Positions 27,339-38,982 of a stretch of DNA of 64,000 nt are shown piece by piece. Source of the DNA: Parvibaculaceae bacterium PLY_AMNH_Bact1. Its GTDB lineage: Bacteria > Pseudomonadota > Alphaproteobacteria > Parvibaculales > Parvibaculaceae. The notes below the pieces were generated by a model. The model worked only from the letters and a program-made list of their open reading frames with translations, did no database searches and was not told the origin of the DNA. The first letter of the stretch is position 1. Each line of letters opens with the position of its first letter. A program made the position numbers and the translations under genes. The stretch is taken from assembly GCA_032881465.1 (NCBI GenBank), contig CP126168.1, positions 496,001 through 560,000 on the forward strand. The letters are read 5' to 3'.

Positions 27339-27758
27339 ATGAGTGGTACAATTCTAACACCAGTATTGGTTTTGGTGAGCTGGACACTGATTGTGTGGCT
27401 TTGGATGTATGCGCGGCGTCTTCCGGCAATGAGTGCCGCAAATGTTGATGCACAGCAGGCACAGCATCCAGGCGCGCTTGCGGGGCTCCTGCCCTCAGAA
27501 GCACAGCGGGTCGCGGACAATTACAACCATCTGCATGAACAGCCGACGATATTTTATGCATTGATTGTCTACAGCCATCTGGCAGGTGTGGCCGATCCTT
27601 TGAACATCGGCCTGGCATGGGCTTATGTCGGTCTGCGGATTGTTCATTCGTTGGTGCAAAATACCGTCAATATCGTGATGATCCGGTTCTCGCTTTTCGC
27701 TCTATCGACTCTGGCGCTGATTGTGATCGCTGTGCGCAACCTGCTCGCGCTGGGCTAA
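27339..27758 (+). CDS. MAPEG family membrane protein
   Basis: 139 residues with four predicted membrane helices. The MAPEG signature region NYNHLHEQPTIFYALIV sits near residue 66, and AYVGLRIVHSLVQ with the conserved Arg/His near 93. Bacterial members are trimeric membrane proteins related to glutathione transferases; the substrate is unknown. It starts 25 bases after tRNA-Gly. Its stop interleaves with that of the convergent receiver protein (bases CTAA, 27755-27758). Confidence 0.88.
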   Translation: MSGTILTPVLVLVSWTLIVWLWMYARRLPAMSAANVDAQQAQHPGALAGLLPSEAQRVADNYNHLHEQPTIFYALIVYSHLAGVADPLNIGLAWAYVGLRIVHSLVQNTVNIVMIRFSLFALSTLALIVIAVRNLLALG

Positions 27759-28273
27759 AGCTCAATGGGGCGGTCTCGGCGTTCTTCGCCATTGACAGGA
27801 TGATTGTCTCTGCGGCGGCGACGGTCTGGTCCAGCAAAACTATCGGTCTTAACAAAGTCGCGGCTGTTTTTGATTGCATATTGAATGCGATCGAAAAGCA
27901 GCTGCGCTGAGACAGGCTTGCAAAGAACTTCGGTGGCGCCTGCATCGCGGGCGGCAGCAATTGTCTCGACGCTTGGATGGGCAATGAGCACGATAATGGG
28001 AAGCTCCGCATTGGGAATGTCTTTCCCCGTGCGGACATGGCGCGTGAAGGCCAGACCATCCACGGGGGTCATCCCGCTGTCTACGATGGCAAAGTCGACC
28101 TCCGAAGCGTGCAGACTTTGAGCCGCATCGTCGCCATCCCGCGCTTCTGAGATTTCGGTGACTTCGAAGGCTTTTAGTTGCTGCCTAAGTACCGTCAGCA
28201 TATAGCGGTTTTCTTCTGCGATAAGGAACCGCAGGTTCGCGAGATCGACGTCTTCCATTGATGAGCTACTCAT
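27755..28273 (-). CDS. single-domain response regulator with GPDRR tail (divergent copy)
   Basis: 172 residues. A receiver domain (about 12-130) with phospho-acceptor Asp in FAIVDSGM and Lys in LCKPVS, followed by a basic tail with FAGPDRRRRR. The usual acidic pair is EE (AEEN) and the switch Thr is replaced by Ile (IVLIAH), so its phosphorylation response may be altered. No output domain. It is the second of two tandem receiver genes downstream of a glycosyltransferase. It overlaps the MAPEG gene stop by four bases. Confidence 0.88.
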   Translation of the reverse strand: MSSSSMEDVDLANLRFLIAEENRYMLTVLRQQLKAFEVTEISEARDGDDAAQSLHASEVDFAIVDSGMTPVDGLAFTRHVRTGKDIPNAELPIIVLIAHPSVETIAAARDAGATEVLCKPVSAQLLFDRIQYAIKNSRDFVKTDSFAGPDRRRRRDNHPVNGEERRDRPIEL

Positions 28274-28365: not shown

Positions 28366-28857
28366 TTAAGCATCCTCACGCCTGTCTGGCCCTGAATATG
28401 GTTTCGGGCGTAGGCGGCGTCTGTCAGGTCCAGTGTATTGTGGCGTCTTGATAAACCGCCTGTTTATCTGCAGCAGCGCCTGGATACGCTGGTAAAGCCT
28501 TTTTGCGGAAATTGGTTTGCGAACGACGTCACTTGCGCCCGCGTCCCGCGCTTCCTGGATGCGTGCACGTTCTGTATGCGCTGTAAGAAGCAGGATCGGG
28601 AGCTCTGGATCATAGCTGTCATTTGCCGTGCGGATAAGACGGATGAAATCCAAGCCATCAAGCGGTTCCATCAAATAATCCACGATTGCGAGATCTATTG
28701 GGGAAGAGCGAACAATCTCAAAGGCATCTGCTGCATCGCGGGCGTCATGCACTGTTCCTGCGCCCAGTGCCCGCAGCAACTCCCGGAGAATGGAGATCAT
28801 GTGGTGGTTGTCATCAACGACCAAAAACGAGAGCGGAGAAAGGTCGAAATCACGCAT
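28366..28857 (-). CDS. single-domain response regulator with GPDRR tail
   Basis: 163 residues. A canonical receiver: acidic pair in VVDDNHHM, Asp in LAIVDYLMEP, Thr in LLTAHTE, Lys in RKPIS. The tail repeats a motif, YTGPDRR and YSGPDRR, typical of alphaproteobacterial receiver-only proteins. I start at ATG 28857 (GAAGG upstream); a TTG at 28896 is in frame but unlikely. It is paralogous to the next gene and downstream of the glycosyltransferase, so it may control or respond to that locus. Confidence 0.88.
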   Translation of the reverse strand: MRDFDLSPLSFLVVDDNHHMISILRELLRALGAGTVHDARDAADAFEIVRSSPIDLAIVDYLMEPLDGLDFIRLIRTANDSYDPELPILLLTAHTERARIQEARDAGASDVVRKPISAKRLYQRIQALLQINRRFIKTPQYTGPDRRRLRPKPYSGPDRREDA

Positions 28858-28969
28858 TGGACGGCCTTCTGGCAATACGTCTCCATGGACACGCAAAGCG
28901 ATTGGAAACGGAAAGCCACCCGTTATGCGAGTATATGGCTGTGTGCCTTAACTGAAGGTTTACAAGTTG

Positions 28970-30916
28970 CTACCGTCGATCAGACAGCCCCCGCCGCGCA
29001 CGTGCGGCGTAAGCAGGCATGAGGGCGCTCACTCCGTGACTGGTCTTTTCCCAATAGTGGGGTCTGGCGAACAGCTCATAGAGCGCCTTGTACGCGCCGG
29101 TTGAGATGAGCAGCCAATAGAGGGGCGTCGTGAACACATGCCACCCGAGGCCATCGAGCCCACGGGCTTGCGCACCAACGAGGCCTGCAATGATGGCCGC
29201 ACCAAAACCAATAAACAGAACGCTCAAGTTGAGCAGCGCCAGGACGATGGGGCCGACACCGTCGATGGGGGCGAGACCGTTCACAAACATCAATGATACG
29301 AAAATGTAGAACAGCGGATGGGCAAGCGCTGATAACAAGAAGCCGCCGGTCACGATCTGGAGAACGACAAAGCCCAAAGGGCCAAGTGCTGCATAAGTCT
29401 CTAGTGGGGTACGCATCCGAACGATGTAAGTTTGCATCCAGCCTTTCAGCCACCGAGACCGTTGCCGTATCCAGTTGGGCAAGAGGCAGTTTGCCTCTTC
29501 TAGGGTTGCCGTTGAAATGACGCCGGTCCTATAGCCTCGTTCGCAAAGTCTGAAGCCCAGATCCGCATCTTCGGTGACATTGTAGGGATCCCAGGCACCG
29601 ACCTTTTTCAGAATATAGGTGCGAAAATGGGTGGATGTTCCACCGAGAGGGAAGGGCAGTCCAAAACGCGCGAGTGCCGGGAGAAGGAGGTCGAACAAAG
29701 AGGCATATTCAATTGCGAAGTGCCGCGTGAGCCAGTTCTCATCCCAATTGTAGTAGGCAAGGGGTGCTTGCACGCAAGCTAGGCGCGGGCCTCCAGATTT
29801 AAAGGCGTGCACGGCTTCGCGCAGTTGTGCGGGCCCGGGAATATCTTCTGCATCATACACAACAAGGAACTCGCCACGGGCAAACTCAAGTGCGTAATTG
29901 CACGCTTTTGGTTTTGTAAGAGGATGAGAGGTTGGAACGAGGATAAGCTCAACATTTCCAGGAAGGTTTAAGTGTCGGGCTGTCTCGATCGTTTCCTGGT
30001 CAGTTTCTTCGAGCACAAGTTTAACATCGAGCTTGGCAAGCGGATAGTCCAGCTTTTGGATCGCGTCCATCAGAATAGGGAGGACTTCTGCTTCTCGAAG
30101 GAGGGGAACCATAATCGTGTAGCGGGGGAGGTCTTGGTCTCTCATGCGGCCAACACCTCCCACCTTCCAGGGAGGTGGTTGTCGACTGACCATGACAGAG
30201 AGAAGTCTCAAAGAAGCTAAAGAGATGAAGGCGACGATGGTTATGACGTTGAGCGTCAGAAGGGCCGAGTTGGGAAAAAGGAAAGCCAAAGCGAGCAGCG
30301 TACACATGCCGATCAGGAAGACCGTCTTCGCTTTTTTGGACAGGAGCCGTCGTGCAGATGCGTCAGGTTGATCCTCTAGGAGTGCGAATTGGGCACGTCG
30401 GGTCAACTCGTCGCCGAAGGTGGACCGGATAGTGCGCAGAATGTCGAGCGGCGCTGTCTGGAGCAGCAGAAAGGGTTCCGCCGTTTTTTCCTCCAGCGCT
30501 GACGAAGCCTTGTCCAAATCTACAGCGACGTAGGTTGGTGTTGTTCCGTCTGTCTTCCACGGAAGGCATTGGTACTGCAGATAGAAAGTGATGTCTTCTG
30601 CATTGAGCAACTGAATGTCTGGGGGGGTGAGGAGGAGGTTGATGAAGCGGACACCGCGCTGCTCGGCAAGTGCGCGATAGACATCAAAGGCGCGAACATC
30701 GCCATGGCTGATCAGTTCTTCGCCGAGCCGCGCCCCCGATTGTTTCTGTCTTTCTCTTGCTTGAGCAAGCTGGAGTGGCGACACGGCACCCCGCTCAAAG
30801 AGTAGGTCACCAATCTGCGGCTGCTTGAGCGCAAAGGCCGGTGCCGCCTCGTCAAAACCGCGCAAATGTCGATCTAGCCCCCCGTCGCTACCCGACGTGT
30901 TCTTTTCCCCCCTCAT
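28970..30916 (-). CDS. family 2 glycosyltransferase with N-terminal MshEN (c-di-GMP-binding) domain
   Basis: 648 residues. Two 24-residue MshEN motifs lie at 34-57 and 63-86, separated by exactly five residues; the second is near-perfect (R63 L64 G65, G72, Q86), while the first has Q in place of Arg. Two membrane helices near 198-240 precede the GT2 domain (about 265-500) with DAED at 355-358, TED at 448-450 and QRSRW at 485-489, the processive-synthase pattern. Several C-terminal membrane helices follow. It probably polymerises and exports a polysaccharide under c-di-GMP control, comparable to NfrB, in which the order of domains differs. The product is unknown. Confidence 0.9.
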   Translation of the reverse strand: MRGEKNTSGSDGGLDRHLRGFDEAAPAFALKQPQIGDLLFERGAVSPLQLAQARERQKQSGARLGEELISHGDVRAFDVYRALAEQRGVRFINLLLTPPDIQLLNAEDITFYLQYQCLPWKTDGTTPTYVAVDLDKASSALEEKTAEPFLLLQTAPLDILRTIRSTFGDELTRRAQFALLEDQPDASARRLLSKKAKTVFLIGMCTLLALAFLFPNSALLTLNVITIVAFISLASLRLLSVMVSRQPPPWKVGGVGRMRDQDLPRYTIMVPLLREAEVLPILMDAIQKLDYPLAKLDVKLVLEETDQETIETARHLNLPGNVELILVPTSHPLTKPKACNYALEFARGEFLVVYDAEDIPGPAQLREAVHAFKSGGPRLACVQAPLAYYNWDENWLTRHFAIEYASLFDLLLPALARFGLPFPLGGTSTHFRTYILKKVGAWDPYNVTEDADLGFRLCERGYRTGVISTATLEEANCLLPNWIRQRSRWLKGWMQTYIVRMRTPLETYAALGPLGFVVLQIVTGGFLLSALAHPLFYIFVSLMFVNGLAPIDGVGPIVLALLNLSVLFIGFGAAIIAGLVGAQARGLDGLGWHVFTTPLYWLLISTGAYKALYELFARPHYWEKTSHGVSALMPAYAARARRGLSDRR

Positions 30917-31024: not shown

Positions 31025-32236
31025 ATGGTCGCCATTAACGCTGAGCTTGAATTGATTGGAAGTGCACTGGACCACACGGAGAGCCTTCGGCATTCTCCGC
31101 CGATGCGCTGGCTTCTTCTCATAAACCTATTGGCAGTTGTGCTTCTAAGCGGCGCTGTAGCGATCGTGATTGAAGGGACACCTGTCGGAACTGGGACCTC
31201 CAGTACGCTCTCCGCAATATTGGACGACACCAATCCACTGGTTGAAGGCATTCAAGAGAGCGCTGAGGCGCATGAACCTATGTCTGCGTTGCAGGATGAT
31301 GCAGATGTAACGACTGACCAAACCAGCATCAGTGAGCCAGAAAACCGCGAGGCGGAAGTAGAGGCGTCTCACGTTGAGCCAGCTCGTATCGCAAATGATA
31401 TCGGTCTTGTCGCTGCGCCAGATGCGCCAATCCCACTTCCCGCACCAAGAACAAAAGAAACTGAAACCGTTGAGGCCGAACCAGCCGAGATCGAACCTCG
31501 TCCCATCACAAGGTCTGATGCTGAGCAAGACAAGAACGATGAACCAGCCCCACTTGTCGTGGCGACGGAGGGAGACTTCGCGCCGTTCAACTATGTGGAT
31601 GTGGCGGGCAAGCCTGCTGGCTTTGACATTGATATTGCAAAGGAGCTGTGCGGTCGCCTGGAGAGGCAATGTGTCTTCGAAGTAAGACCCTGGGCTGACT
31701 TAATTCCCTCGCTGAGAAGGGGAGATATTGATCTCATTGCGGCATCTATGCGGATACCTTCAACCCGACCTGATGGCGTGATGTTCTCCAATCCCTACTA
31801 CGGATCGCGAGGACGGTTTGTGAGCTCAAAAGGTGCGGGAATTTCTGGTCCGGGTCTGTTGCGGGTTGCAGGTTCTCAAATCGCCGTTCAGCAGGGGAGC
31901 GTGCATGAGGCATACCTTGAGGCGCAATTTGCAGAGGTCGACCTTGTGAGGACACGTTCGCTGTCAGAAGCATTACAGAATGTTCTTGAAGGAAAGGTGG
32001 AAGCAGCCTTTGGCGACAACGCTGCGGTGCTACGGTGGGCTACGGAGCAAGCCTGCTGCACAACGCTTGGCAACCCGATCAGCGATGAAAGCTTCTTCGG
32101 AGAAGGCATAGGTCTCGTTGTTCAAGAAAAAGACAGGGTTCTGCTCGACGCGCTCAACGCACAGCTTCAGGAGATGCTGACCGACGGGACAAGTGGACGG
32201 CTGTCTGACCGTTATTTCGGCGGCTCGATTTACTAA
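31025..32236 (+). CDS. membrane-anchored protein with solute-binding domain (SBP family 3)
   Basis: 403 residues in three parts: one membrane helix (about 28-50), an acidic Pro/Glu-rich linker of about 130 residues (55-182), and a complete family 3 solute-binding domain (from VVATEGDFAPFNYVD to RYFGGSIY). Ligand-site features of amino-acid binders are present (FAPFN, GFDIDIA, AASMRI, FGDNAAVL). No permease or ATPase is near, so it is more likely a tethered sensor or scavenger than part of an importer. ATG 31103, just before the helix, is an alternative start. It is divergent from the glycosyltransferase. Confidence 0.86.
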   Translation: MVAINAELELIGSALDHTESLRHSPPMRWLLLINLLAVVLLSGAVAIVIEGTPVGTGTSSTLSAILDDTNPLVEGIQESAEAHEPMSALQDDADVTTDQTSISEPENREAEVEASHVEPARIANDIGLVAAPDAPIPLPAPRTKETETVEAEPAEIEPRPITRSDAEQDKNDEPAPLVVATEGDFAPFNYVDVAGKPAGFDIDIAKELCGRLERQCVFEVRPWADLIPSLRRGDIDLIAASMRIPSTRPDGVMFSNPYYGSRGRFVSSKGAGISGPGLLRVAGSQIAVQQGSVHEAYLEAQFAEVDLVRTRSLSEALQNVLEGKVEAAFGDNAAVLRWATEQACCTTLGNPISDESFFGEGIGLVVQEKDRVLLDALNAQLQEMLTDGTSGRLSDRYFGGSIY

Positions 32237-32239
32237 CGC

Positions 32240-32764
32240 TTAGCTGTTCTTCATCAACTCGCGTGGCTTCCCATAAAACACCGCATGGCCAGCGCCTTCA
32301 TTTATGTCGGCCCATTTATCAACATCAAACTGAAAAACGGCGAGAGCGCCAGTCGGGTAATGATCGGCCATGCGTGCAGAAATCTCTTTGCTTTTCTCAT
32401 CCGCCAGCGCAACAGCAAGCATTTCTAGGCCTGGATTGTGCGCAACGATGAGAACTGTTTCGTTTCTGTCATCAAGCCCGCGCACTGCTTCGAGCAACGT
32501 ACCCGGCATGGCCATGTAGAGATCGTCACGATACTCGACAGCACACTTGCCCTGCAGCGTTTCGGCGAGTGGTTTGATGGTTGAGCGCGCGCGAACGGCC
32601 GTCGAACACAAGGCGTGATCCGGCGTCCATCCCTGATCAACAATAAACCCGGCGAGGAAGGCGGCGGACTTAACGCCGCGCCCGTTGAGCGTGCGTTGTG
32701 AATCCTCGGTTTCCGGCTGGTTCCAGTCAGACTTGGCGTGGCGCATAAGACAGAGACGTTTCAT
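32240..32764 (-). CDS. sixA: histidine phosphatase SixA-like
   Basis: 174 residues, histidine phosphatase superfamily, SixA type. The catalytic RHAKSDW is at residues 8-14, ALCSTAVRARST follows near 52 and the second His lies in VAHNPGLE near 108. SixA removes phosphate from phosphohistidine, for example on HPt or PTS proteins. The gene overlaps the upstream hydroxylase by four bases (ATGA), so the two are translationally coupled; the reason for this pairing is unknown. Confidence 0.92.
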   Translation of the reverse strand: MKRLCLMRHAKSDWNQPETEDSQRTLNGRGVKSAAFLAGFIVDQGWTPDHALCSTAVRARSTIKPLAETLQGKCAVEYRDDLYMAMPGTLLEAVRGLDDRNETVLIVAHNPGLEMLAVALADEKSKEISARMADHYPTGALAVFQFDVDKWADINEGAGHAVFYGKPRELMKNS

Positions 32765-37125: not shown

Positions 37126-38982
37126 TTATCCTGCTAGAGCAGGATAGGCTCTGGTGAGCGCGTTGGCGCCCGACTTGAACTTAGCTTCCAGCTGTCCGAC
37201 GCGATCAGAGAGCACCTGGTCTCGGGTGGCGTCCGGAAGGTCATCAAGAAGGTGAGATGCACCACCCGATAGACCTGTCAGGCCAATTGCATTTGCTTCG
37301 ATGGCAAGGCTCTCCGCGATGGCACGAAGGGTGCGATGATCGCTTCGCCTCACCGCGTCACTGAGAGCTTTTTGCAAATCGGCTATCGCATGGATGGCCT
37401 CGCCGAGATGATCAGCGATGCGAGCTGTGCCAAGATCCTGCTCTAGTTCATAGATCCGGTCGAAATCGAGGACCTGACCAGTATTGGGGGCGGTTTGGTC
37501 TTGGTTCACGGTTTGCCCAGGGCGTTGTTTGGGGCGTTGACTGATATCAGGCCCCAAAACAAACCAGGCTGTAAAACCGCCGCCAATCATGCTGTCTGCA
37601 CCGGCTCGCCCGCCCATCAGGCGCACCAACCGGTCGCATATCGTCAGATTGACATCGCGGCGTTTCAATGGGGCATGTTCCCCTTCATTGTCGAGCGAAG
37701 AGAAGAGACGCGCGGCCTCCTCAGATGGCATGCCAGCACCTGTATCTGTGACGGAGAATCTGACGCCAACTTCTTCGTCTATGTCGACGGGGGAAAGACG
37801 CACCATCACGCCACCTACCTCGGTCGTGCGAAGTGCCCGGACGATCAGATTGACAAGAGCTTGTTTCACCCGGTCCGGGTCATTGTGAATGGTCTTAGGT
37901 GTGCCCGGCAGCTCATCGACCTCAATCGACAGTTTCCTGGAAGACGCATCGTGGCGTGTCACGTGGATGGCTGCCTGAGCGATTTCCATTGGCGAAAGGT
38001 CAGTCGGACGCAATTTGATCGAAAGAGCTTCCATCTCTGTGAGGTCGGACAGATCATCCACAAGCCGGTTTAGGAGACGGCTGGATTCTTCCACGCCACG
38101 CGAATAGCTGCGTTGCTTCTCGTCCAGCTCGGTTGCTTCGAGCATGTGCGCGAGACCGGAGAGGCTCGCAAGCGGTGACCGGATCTCGTGGGTGACCATC
38201 GAAAGGAAGTCCTGCCTCGACCGTGCTGCTTTGCGGGCGACCGCATAGGCGGTTTCGGCGTCTTTCGCTTTCTTTTCCGCCTCAGCTTTGGCATCTGCCA
38301 ATCCGCTGACCAACTCTTCATTCTTCAATTGAAGGGCGATGGCGGAGACACTGGTGAGATGTAGTGTCTTGGTGGCTGAATAGAGGGCAATCCACATCAA
38401 AGAACTGAGAGCTGCCATAAACTGGCCCTCCCAGCCGGCACCAATAAGAAGCGTGACCATTCCTGGAAGCGCGGCAGCTGTTGTGTAACCGAGCATAGCG
38501 CTTGGATACACGTGGCGCGAAATCACCGTATTGAGACAAAGCCCGGCAACGACCACGCCAAATATGGCCTGGGAAGCAAACGGGGCATCAGGCAGCCACA
38601 GAACACCAGCGACACCCCAAGCGCCGCCCGAAAGGAGACAGATGCGGGTGTATCGATCACCCCATGTCTTGGGAGAAATCTCATGGGTCTCGTCTGAATG
38701 ATACCGTGATCGCAGCAGGTTGAAGGCCGATTGAGACGCGACCAATAGGCCGAACGGGATCATGAACTCAGCAACCGATGATGTACCAAAGAATGGCAAC
38801 CAGACCGCCATCAGGGCAATAAAGATAAGGATACTGCCAGATTTGCCGAGATCGAATAGTCGCCGCACCTGCTCGGCCTCGATCCGCGGATCTACCGCAG
38901 GCGACTGGACAGCGGCAGGCTCAGCAGATGCGCCATCATCTGCTGAGTTGCTGATCTTGGATGGTTCGGCGGACAAACTCAC
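37126..38982 (-). CDS. membrane sensor kinase-like protein with degenerate ATPase motifs and HPt-like tail
   Basis: 618 residues. A cytoplasmic N-terminus leads into six or so membrane helices (about 48-210), a coiled coil (220-255), HisKA with H265 in THEIRSP, and HATPase_c (about 365-480). The N box reads NLIVRAL, with R382 where Asn normally binds magnesium. DTGAG (413-417) is kept, but the G2 box GTGLGL is replaced near 443-448 by DVNLTI. The C-terminal domain (504-618) resembles HPt, yet the AHxLKG motif reads AESLAI with E557 for His. It may be a pseudokinase, scaffold or phosphatase. The GTG start follows AAGGAG. Confidence 0.85.
   Translation of the reverse strand: MSLSAEPSKISNSADDGASAEPAAVQSPAVDPRIEAEQVRRLFDLGKSGSILIFIALMAVWLPFFGTSSVAEFMIPFGLLVASQSAFNLLRSRYHSDETHEISPKTWGDRYTRICLLSGGAWGVAGVLWLPDAPFASQAIFGVVVAGLCLNTVISRHVYPSAMLGYTTAAALPGMVTLLIGAGWEGQFMAALSSLMWIALYSATKTLHLTSVSAIALQLKNEELVSGLADAKAEAEKKAKDAETAYAVARKAARSRQDFLSMVTHEIRSPLASLSGLAHMLEATELDEKQRSYSRGVEESSRLLNRLVDDLSDLTEMEALSIKLRPTDLSPMEIAQAAIHVTRHDASSRKLSIEVDELPGTPKTIHNDPDRVKQALVNLIVRALRTTEVGGVMVRLSPVDIDEEVGVRFSVTDTGAGMPSEEAARLFSSLDNEGEHAPLKRRDVNLTICDRLVRLMGGRAGADSMIGGGFTAWFVLGPDISQRPKQRPGQTVNQDQTAPNTGQVLDFDRIYELEQDLGTARIADHLGEAIHAIADLQKALSDAVRRSDHRTLRAIAESLAIEANAIGLTGLSGGASHLLDDLPDATRDQVLSDRVGQLEAKFKSGANALTRAYPALAG

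Follow-up and report, generated by a model that had tools for sequence, protein, structure and literature searches.

BcsA is controlled by cyclic di-GMP (c-di-GMP) through its PilZ domain. PgaC (PMC10333796) and BgsA (PMC5567048) are likewise membrane synthases of glycosyltransferase family 2 (GT2) under c-di-GMP control, PgaC acting in the PgaC/PgaD complex and BgsA carrying a C-terminus specific to it. In MshE and PilF, c-di-GMP is bound by an MshEN domain, which there regulates an ATPase and whose polar contacts in MshE come from the backbone of Gly3 and the side chain of Gln24 of each 24-residue motif (Wang et al. 2016, PMC5013675). Fusions of MshEN with glycosyltransferases (GTs) have been reported in general (PMC5013675), and in E. 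coli NfrB, which was shown to bind c-di-GMP and for which there is evidence of a secreted polysaccharide product, a GT2 part with the DxD, TED and QxxRW motifs is joined through membrane helices to a C-terminal MshEN domain (PMC8669469). The Cle effectors of c-di-GMP, CleA-E in Caulobacter, are single receiver domains with a C-terminal tandem tail (PMC5677366; PDB 6sft), and [YF]xGP[DE][RK]R is their defining motif (PMC5677366; PMC10333796). Here we describe, in a stretch of 64,000 nucleotides from Parvibaculaceae bacterium PLY_AMNH_Bact1 (contig CP126168.1, positions 496,001 to 560,000; the window), a gene in which an N-terminal MshEN domain, in place of the PilZ domain, PgaD partner or special C-terminus of the synthases named above, is fused to a GT2 enzyme, and which is followed by two Cle-like response regulators. 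As a whole, the locus is in our judgement fairly likely to specify an MshEN-regulated inner-membrane synthase with Cle-like co-sensors of c-di-GMP. It is an architecture variant of the known MshEN-GT2 fusion, the Cle-like neighbours being the new element.

The open reading frame (ORF) of the fusion is real where the initial annotation had placed it, running on the minus strand from an ATG at 30916 to a stop at 28970. Its translation agrees with the proposed pair of motifs (residues 34-57 and 63-86) in 24-5-24 spacing, the spacer being five residues long, and with the retention of R63, L64, G65, G72 and Q86 in motif II. Both MshEN subdomains are present, since residues 34-86 match NCBIfam NF053729 (c-di-GMP_motif; 51.6 bits, E 6.1e-14, cut-off 38) and residues 88-171 match Pfam MshEN (27.8 bits, cut-off 23.1), each above its cut-off; chance similarity of the MshEN/GT2 protein was ruled out, the scores lying far over the cut-offs. 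The protein is the sole Pfam MshEN match (E up to 0.01) in its own genome.

An NfrB-like system was considered and set aside. The domain order is reversed relative to NfrB, the NfrB equivalog NF008411 gives 33.1 bits against a cut-off of 1170, and, in contrast to the nfrBA-ybcH operon (PMC8669469), the nearest genes are here those of the Cle-like regulators and of an SBP_bac_3 protein; neither nfrA nor ybcH appeared among seven neighbours in a Pfam scan, which was not a search directed at them. The CelA and PgaC equivalogs likewise stay below their cut-offs (52.1 of 699.1 and 49 of 422.3 bits). The contrast with NfrB drawn by the initial annotation is thus true as to the N-terminal placement of MshEN, but this placement is not special: a survey of architectures gave 14 other non-redundant fusions, which, with the report of Wang et al. 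(2016), refutes it as a novelty by itself. For the reversed order, its family-wide conservation and the Cle neighbours, no account was found in the open-access literature, searched mostly by titles and the starts of abstracts; queries for Parvibaculum and c-di-GMP, XagB and c-di-GMP, and CleD and glycosyltransferase returned nothing on the locus at the same level.

The full-length model has a mean predicted local distance difference test score (pLDDT) of 88.3 and a predicted template modelling score of 0.88. A structure search with this model listed no MshE, the GT domain filling the list, and the MshEN domain was therefore folded alone (pLDDT 93.4). Its best match in the PDB is c-di-GMP-bound MshE (5htl; Z-score 16.0, root-mean-square deviation 2.9, 135 aligned residues, 27% identity), followed by c-di-GMP-bound PilF GSPII-B (8pdk, Z about 14). 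The domain shares with these the 24-5-24 pair, although motif II of GSPII-B is one residue shorter, as well as the fold and the Gly and Gln contacts (PMC5013675, PMC11731258); it differs from them by Gln at position 1 and Arg at position 21 of motif I.

The window protein retains the four polar contacts with the ligand (G36, Q57, G65 and Q86). Within the hydrophobic cluster, formed by Leu at positions 2, 17 and 21 of each motif, I35, L50, L64, V79 and L83 fit and R54 is a misfit. A change from Leu to Ile in motif II was found to have only a 2.4-fold cost (PMC12002112). The initial annotation had pointed to Gln in place of the key Arg in motif I. Gln34 is indeed there, and R63 occupies the same position in motif II, but Gln34 is probably not the main concern, as Arg is missing at that position in all 26 non-redundant family rows. 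Lack of this Arg as the sole disabling change was rejected for the same reason, and also because PilF GSPII-B, with Lys and Leu in place of the Arg that opens each motif, still binds c-di-GMP at 6 nM (PMC11731258). In GSPII-C, motif II begins with Pro (PMC11731258), and in MshE changes of Arg9, Asp12 and Gln32 cost about fivefold in affinity at most (PMC5013675). Since Lys, Leu or Pro at position 1 is compatible with binding in characterised relatives, Gln34 is probably tolerable by analogy.

The enzyme and, to a large extent, its sensor site are conserved in the family. A GT relative was found in 38 of 40 family genomes and in all 27 of high quality. NF053729 matches 37 of the 40, in 24 above the cut-off; in two genomes of a second genus (genus 2) its matches fall in other, short frames. 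A wider scan at the level of the order returned the same 40 genomes and so widens the sampling nowhere. Most alignments were made with stop-to-stop frames rather than annotated starts. In 32 family domain rows, which omit genus 2 as no domain aligned there, all four polar contacts are present in 31, the exception being L106; after removal of redundancy (26 rows), G3, G3' and Q24' are found in every row and Q24 in 25. The other key positions vary: position 1 of motif I is Leu in 20 rows, Pro in 3, Gln in 2 and Lys in 1, and position 21 is Leu in 20, Arg in 3 and Val in 3; in motif II, position 1 is Arg in 15, Pro in 7, Ser in 3 and Gln in 1, and position 21 is Leu in 12, Tyr in 12 and Val in 2. 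The 12 contact positions have an entropy of 0.87 bits, compared with 1.78 for the other 41 (Mann-Whitney p 0.001), a difference that is indicative only because the rows are related. For the same reason, conservation and the Cle link described below are not independent events.

Outside the family, the picture is different. In 385 genomes of the class, 111 matched the motif model (E up to 1e-5) and 45 the GT (E up to 1e-60). The 30 best class loci comprised 14 with a Walker A motif, one GT with a C-terminal MshEN (L155) and 15 with neither; L211, whose GT match is weak, adds another C-terminal case. Many class loci are the same genes fetched twice, so that the 36 GT-bearing loci among the 65 of L172-L236 amount to 26 distinct genes. 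The 14 other N-terminal MshEN-GT2 fusions come from the alphaproteobacterial class loci examined, and only 2 of them have all four polar contacts. An alignment-free scan for the motif spacing found the four contacts in 1 of 73 wider-family loci (L012), these being loci beyond the window's eight-row clade (L002-L008), with the genus-2 loci L011 and L013 included and 27 of the 73 unaligned in the MshEN region. Taken together, 31 of 32 family rows have the contacts, as against 2 of the 14 other fusions and 1 of the 73 wider-family loci, which indicates that the sensor site is decayed in most sampled lineages and kept in the window's family. L012 itself is a 10.6-kb contig labelled Chloroflexota that carries an N-terminal MshEN-GT2 fusion with the four contacts; it could represent an ancient source or a transfer, or the contig may have been binned wrongly.

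Two response regulator genes, RR1 and RR2, lie downstream of the GT gene on the same strand, with gaps of 73 and 92 bases between the ORFs. RR1 has the complete Cle pattern, i.e. a receiver domain only and two copies of the tail motif in tandem, and the sole PDB match of its tail at E up to 10 is CleD (6sft, E 5.1e-4). The tandem of RR2 is incomplete, with one full and one degenerate copy. Unlike the Caulobacter Cle proteins, both regulators adjoin a GT2 synthase. In 27 of 29 other family loci (L083-L111), too, the GT gene is followed on its own strand by a regulator with the motif; these are the best-scoring matches apart from the window, and eight further matching genomes, which yielded no GT locus, are outside the count, being represented only by the genus-2 locus L242 (G002) and the domain stretches L113 and L134. 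The exceptions are L089, with a GPERR variant, and L090, a Tepidicaulis contig without any such regulator. By contrast, no Cle-motif regulator was found near the GT in 71 loci outside the family, nor in the 36 class loci holding a GT (26 distinct genes, short flanks), the motif search covering flanks of differing length and frames of 90-300 residues only.

RR1 looks canonical in its receiver domain, whereas in RR2 Glu residues form the acidic pair and Ile replaces the customary Thr/Ser; judging by these residues, RR2 may be a pseudo-receiver. The genome has 25 RR1-like places; among these, four regulators have the motif, two of them being RR1 and RR2. The other two response regulators, L247 and L248, lie outside the window, and each has a single Cle-type motif.

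We considered the possibility that the Cle-like regulators are neighbours by ancestry only, with the flagellar motor as their target, as it is in Caulobacter, and with no relation to the GT. Known Cle proteins act on FliM (PMC5677366), a FliM gene is present in the genome, and synteny within the family extends over the entire block, so that adjacency does not provide independent evidence. Two further points weigh against a joint system: L090 keeps its sensor without a Cle neighbour, and a weak terminator-like site lies between the GT gene and RR1; promoter-like sites in this interval are no commoner than expected by chance. Yet the tight same-strand order recurs in nearly all family loci, and the genus-2 loci (L242/L013, where the GT match starts at query residue 164, and L011), which have no aligned MshEN region, also lack the regulator. 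Furthermore, six more distant loci (L018, L019, L023, L024, L035 and L053) have a regulator beside the GT with an altered tail motif (e.g. YVGPSRS); in five of them the MshEN region aligns with its polar contacts lost, L053 being cut by the contig end. From their sequences, these five loci look as if both receptors had decayed together. On balance, mere ancestry is almost as probable as not.

A second possibility is that the MshEN domain of the window's genus has lost ligand binding and is now a structural or docking domain, like XpsE or PilF GSPII-A, sensing being left to the Cle regulators only. Several observations argue in this direction and thus count against the reading that we favour. 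Besides Gln34, motif I has R54 where MshE has Leu29, a point missed by the initial annotation and a larger doubt for binding than Gln34; among family rows, Arg at position 21 is confined to the window's genus. Mutations in the hydrophobic cluster of MshE caused a more than 10-fold loss of affinity, and L29R is one of the eight changes listed for the non-binding XpsE (PMC5013675). Binding by an engineered, restored PilF GSPII-A fragment was abolished when the first residue of motif II was Ser and not Arg (PMC12002112), and the rarity of the four contacts in the wider family and in the other fusions implies that loss is common. The fold does not prove c-di-GMP binding, because XpsE also matches the MshEN domain model (2d28, Z 13.0). 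Nor do motif and fold together, because GSPII-A keeps its fold and, with the consensus restored, did not bind until other contacts had been removed; helix capping and contacts between subdomains can block binding in this way (PMC12002112). Yet the window protein and its close relatives retain G36, Q57, G65 and Q86, motif II is nearly perfect, and the NF053729 score is well above the cut-off. We therefore regard loss of binding as unlikely, though because of R54 the sequence makes binding by the window copy only moderately probable; the chances would be higher in relatives with Leu at position 21.

A more elaborate proposal, which we consider doubtful, places the synthase under two unrelated receptors, MshEN in cis and the Cle proteins in trans, the latter docking on the synthase or shuttling to the flagellar switch, and supposes that in the window's genus the Arg of position 1 has moved to position 21. 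This shift of a base-stacking Arg is an idea only, and covariation does not prove it, since Arg is equally missing from position 1 in relatives that have Leu at position 21.

As to the enzyme, the processive DxxD/TED/QxxRW set claimed for it was borne out. D306, D355/D358, T448-E449-D450 and Q485xxR488W489 are invariant in an alignment of 32 rows, which includes rows with kept and with lost sensor sites, and residues 205-642 match BcsA (Z 29.3) and hyaluronan synthases (about 23-26) in the PDB. Transfer of a single sugar to a lipid or envelope glycan under c-di-GMP control, rather than processive synthesis, is improbable: the mannosyltransferase PcManGT matches the fold almost as well as BcsA (Z 28.9 and 29.3 by VIA-align), which leaves processivity unproven and also counts against our reading, and the seven neighbouring proteins gave no Pfam match to export, TPR or outer-membrane families in a scan not aimed at these, but QxxRW and TED are invariant and every one of the top 19 Foldseek hits is a cellulose or hyaluronan synthase.

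We return to the reading of the locus as an MshEN-regulated synthase with Cle-like co-sensors. The genome has 11 GGDEF, 6 EAL and 3 PilZ matches in addition to FliM, so that both c-di-GMP signalling and a possible target for Cle proteins are present. Direct evidence here covers the sequence motifs, the fold as predicted, the degree of conservation, the order of the genes and the finding that the genome has GGDEF, EAL and FliM genes; ligand binding, the direction of the response, the identity of the polymer, co-transcription and any contact of the Cle proteins with the GT are inferred. The cellulose-synthase-like GT2 enzyme would polymerise the polysaccharide at the inner membrane, probably passing the polymer through it. 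The cytoplasmic N-terminal MshEN domain would bind one c-di-GMP across its two 24-residue motifs, and the resulting change, transmitted via helix 156-182 to the membrane helices, would raise synthase activity at high c-di-GMP; activation rather than inhibition is favoured by analogy with NfrB (PMC8669469). The Cle-like regulators would sense the same signal via Arg-rich tails; their site of action is probably the flagellar switch, the synthase or both, so that polymer production and motility would change together. The initial proposal of a c-di-GMP-switched polysaccharide synthase thus stands as to the MshEN-fused, processive-type GT2, and its control by c-di-GMP is kept as probable only, given the fold, the contacts, the GGDEF and EAL genes and the Cle-like neighbours.

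Table 1. Features of the MshEN-GT2 locus and its surroundings (positions in the window; residues of the encoded protein).
Feature	Position	Strand	Basis
MshEN-GT2 gene, 648 aa	28970..30916	-	ORF; GT relatives in the family genomes
MshEN_N c-di-GMP-binding motif pair, residues 34-86	30659..30817	-	NF053729; genome scan, same place
Motif I, residues 34-57 (position 1 = Gln34, position 21 = Arg54)	30746..30817	-	translation; family tallies
Motif II, residues 63-86 (R63, L64, G65, G72, V79, L83, Q86)	30659..30730	-	translation; family tallies
MshEN_C subdomain, residues 88-171	30404..30655	-	Pfam PF05157; 135 residues of the domain model align with MshE
Two hydrophobic (transmembrane) stretches separating sensor and GT domain, residues 196-242	30191..30331	-	hydropathy; model helices 194-213, 215-244
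GT2 catalytic domain, residues 264-505	29402..30127	-	Pfam; BcsA and hyaluronan synthase folds; invariant catalytic residues
C-terminal membrane helices, residues 504-617	29066..29407	-	model secondary structure; hydropathy
RR1, Cle-like response regulator (receiver and tandem Arg-rich tail)	28366..28896	-	Response_reg; tail motif twice; tail vs CleD 6sft
RR1 tail, two copies of [YF]xGP[DE][RK]R	28369..28437	-	motif search; PDB match
RR2, second Cle-like response regulator	27755..28273	-	Response_reg; one full tail motif, one degenerate
RR2 tail	27758..27838	-	motif search
Membrane-anchored SBP_bac_3 protein, divergent, conserved neighbour	31025..32236	+	Pfam; hydrophobic segment 31-49
SixA-like phosphatase, same syntenic block	32240-32764	-	41.6 bits, below SixA cut-off 74.5
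Histidine kinase, same syntenic block as the regulators	37126-38982	-	profile match

Other neighbours may be connected with this system. Upstream, the GT gene is adjoined by the divergent SBP_bac_3 gene. Among the 81 loci that have enough DNA for the comparison, 62 show this divergent neighbour and none has it co-directional with the GT; this survey includes three genomes twice (L242 = L013, L243 = L007, L244 = L006) and misses the gene of L004, which a synteny comparison did find. The pairing holds also where the MshEN site is lost, and no such gene lies beside the GT at the genus-2 locus L242/L013. This GT2 family may have in the SBP_bac_3 protein a partner, or a sensor in the periplasm, that has so far gone unrecognised. 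The histidine kinase and the SixA-like phosphatase could possibly form a phosphorelay to RR1.

NfrB is the one bench-studied MshEN-controlled synthase met in the literature searched, and the present locus represents a second arrangement. It is present in almost all of the genomes sampled from a single alphaproteobacterial family, and relatives with a decayed sensor keep the enzyme intact. The adjacent Cle-like genes hint at a common switch by which the cell would change from swimming to sticking. If the Cle regulators act on the same process as the synthase, a single small locus would link the halt in movement to attachment via two different c-di-GMP receptors; if they dock on the synthase, Cle proteins would gain a target beyond the motor.
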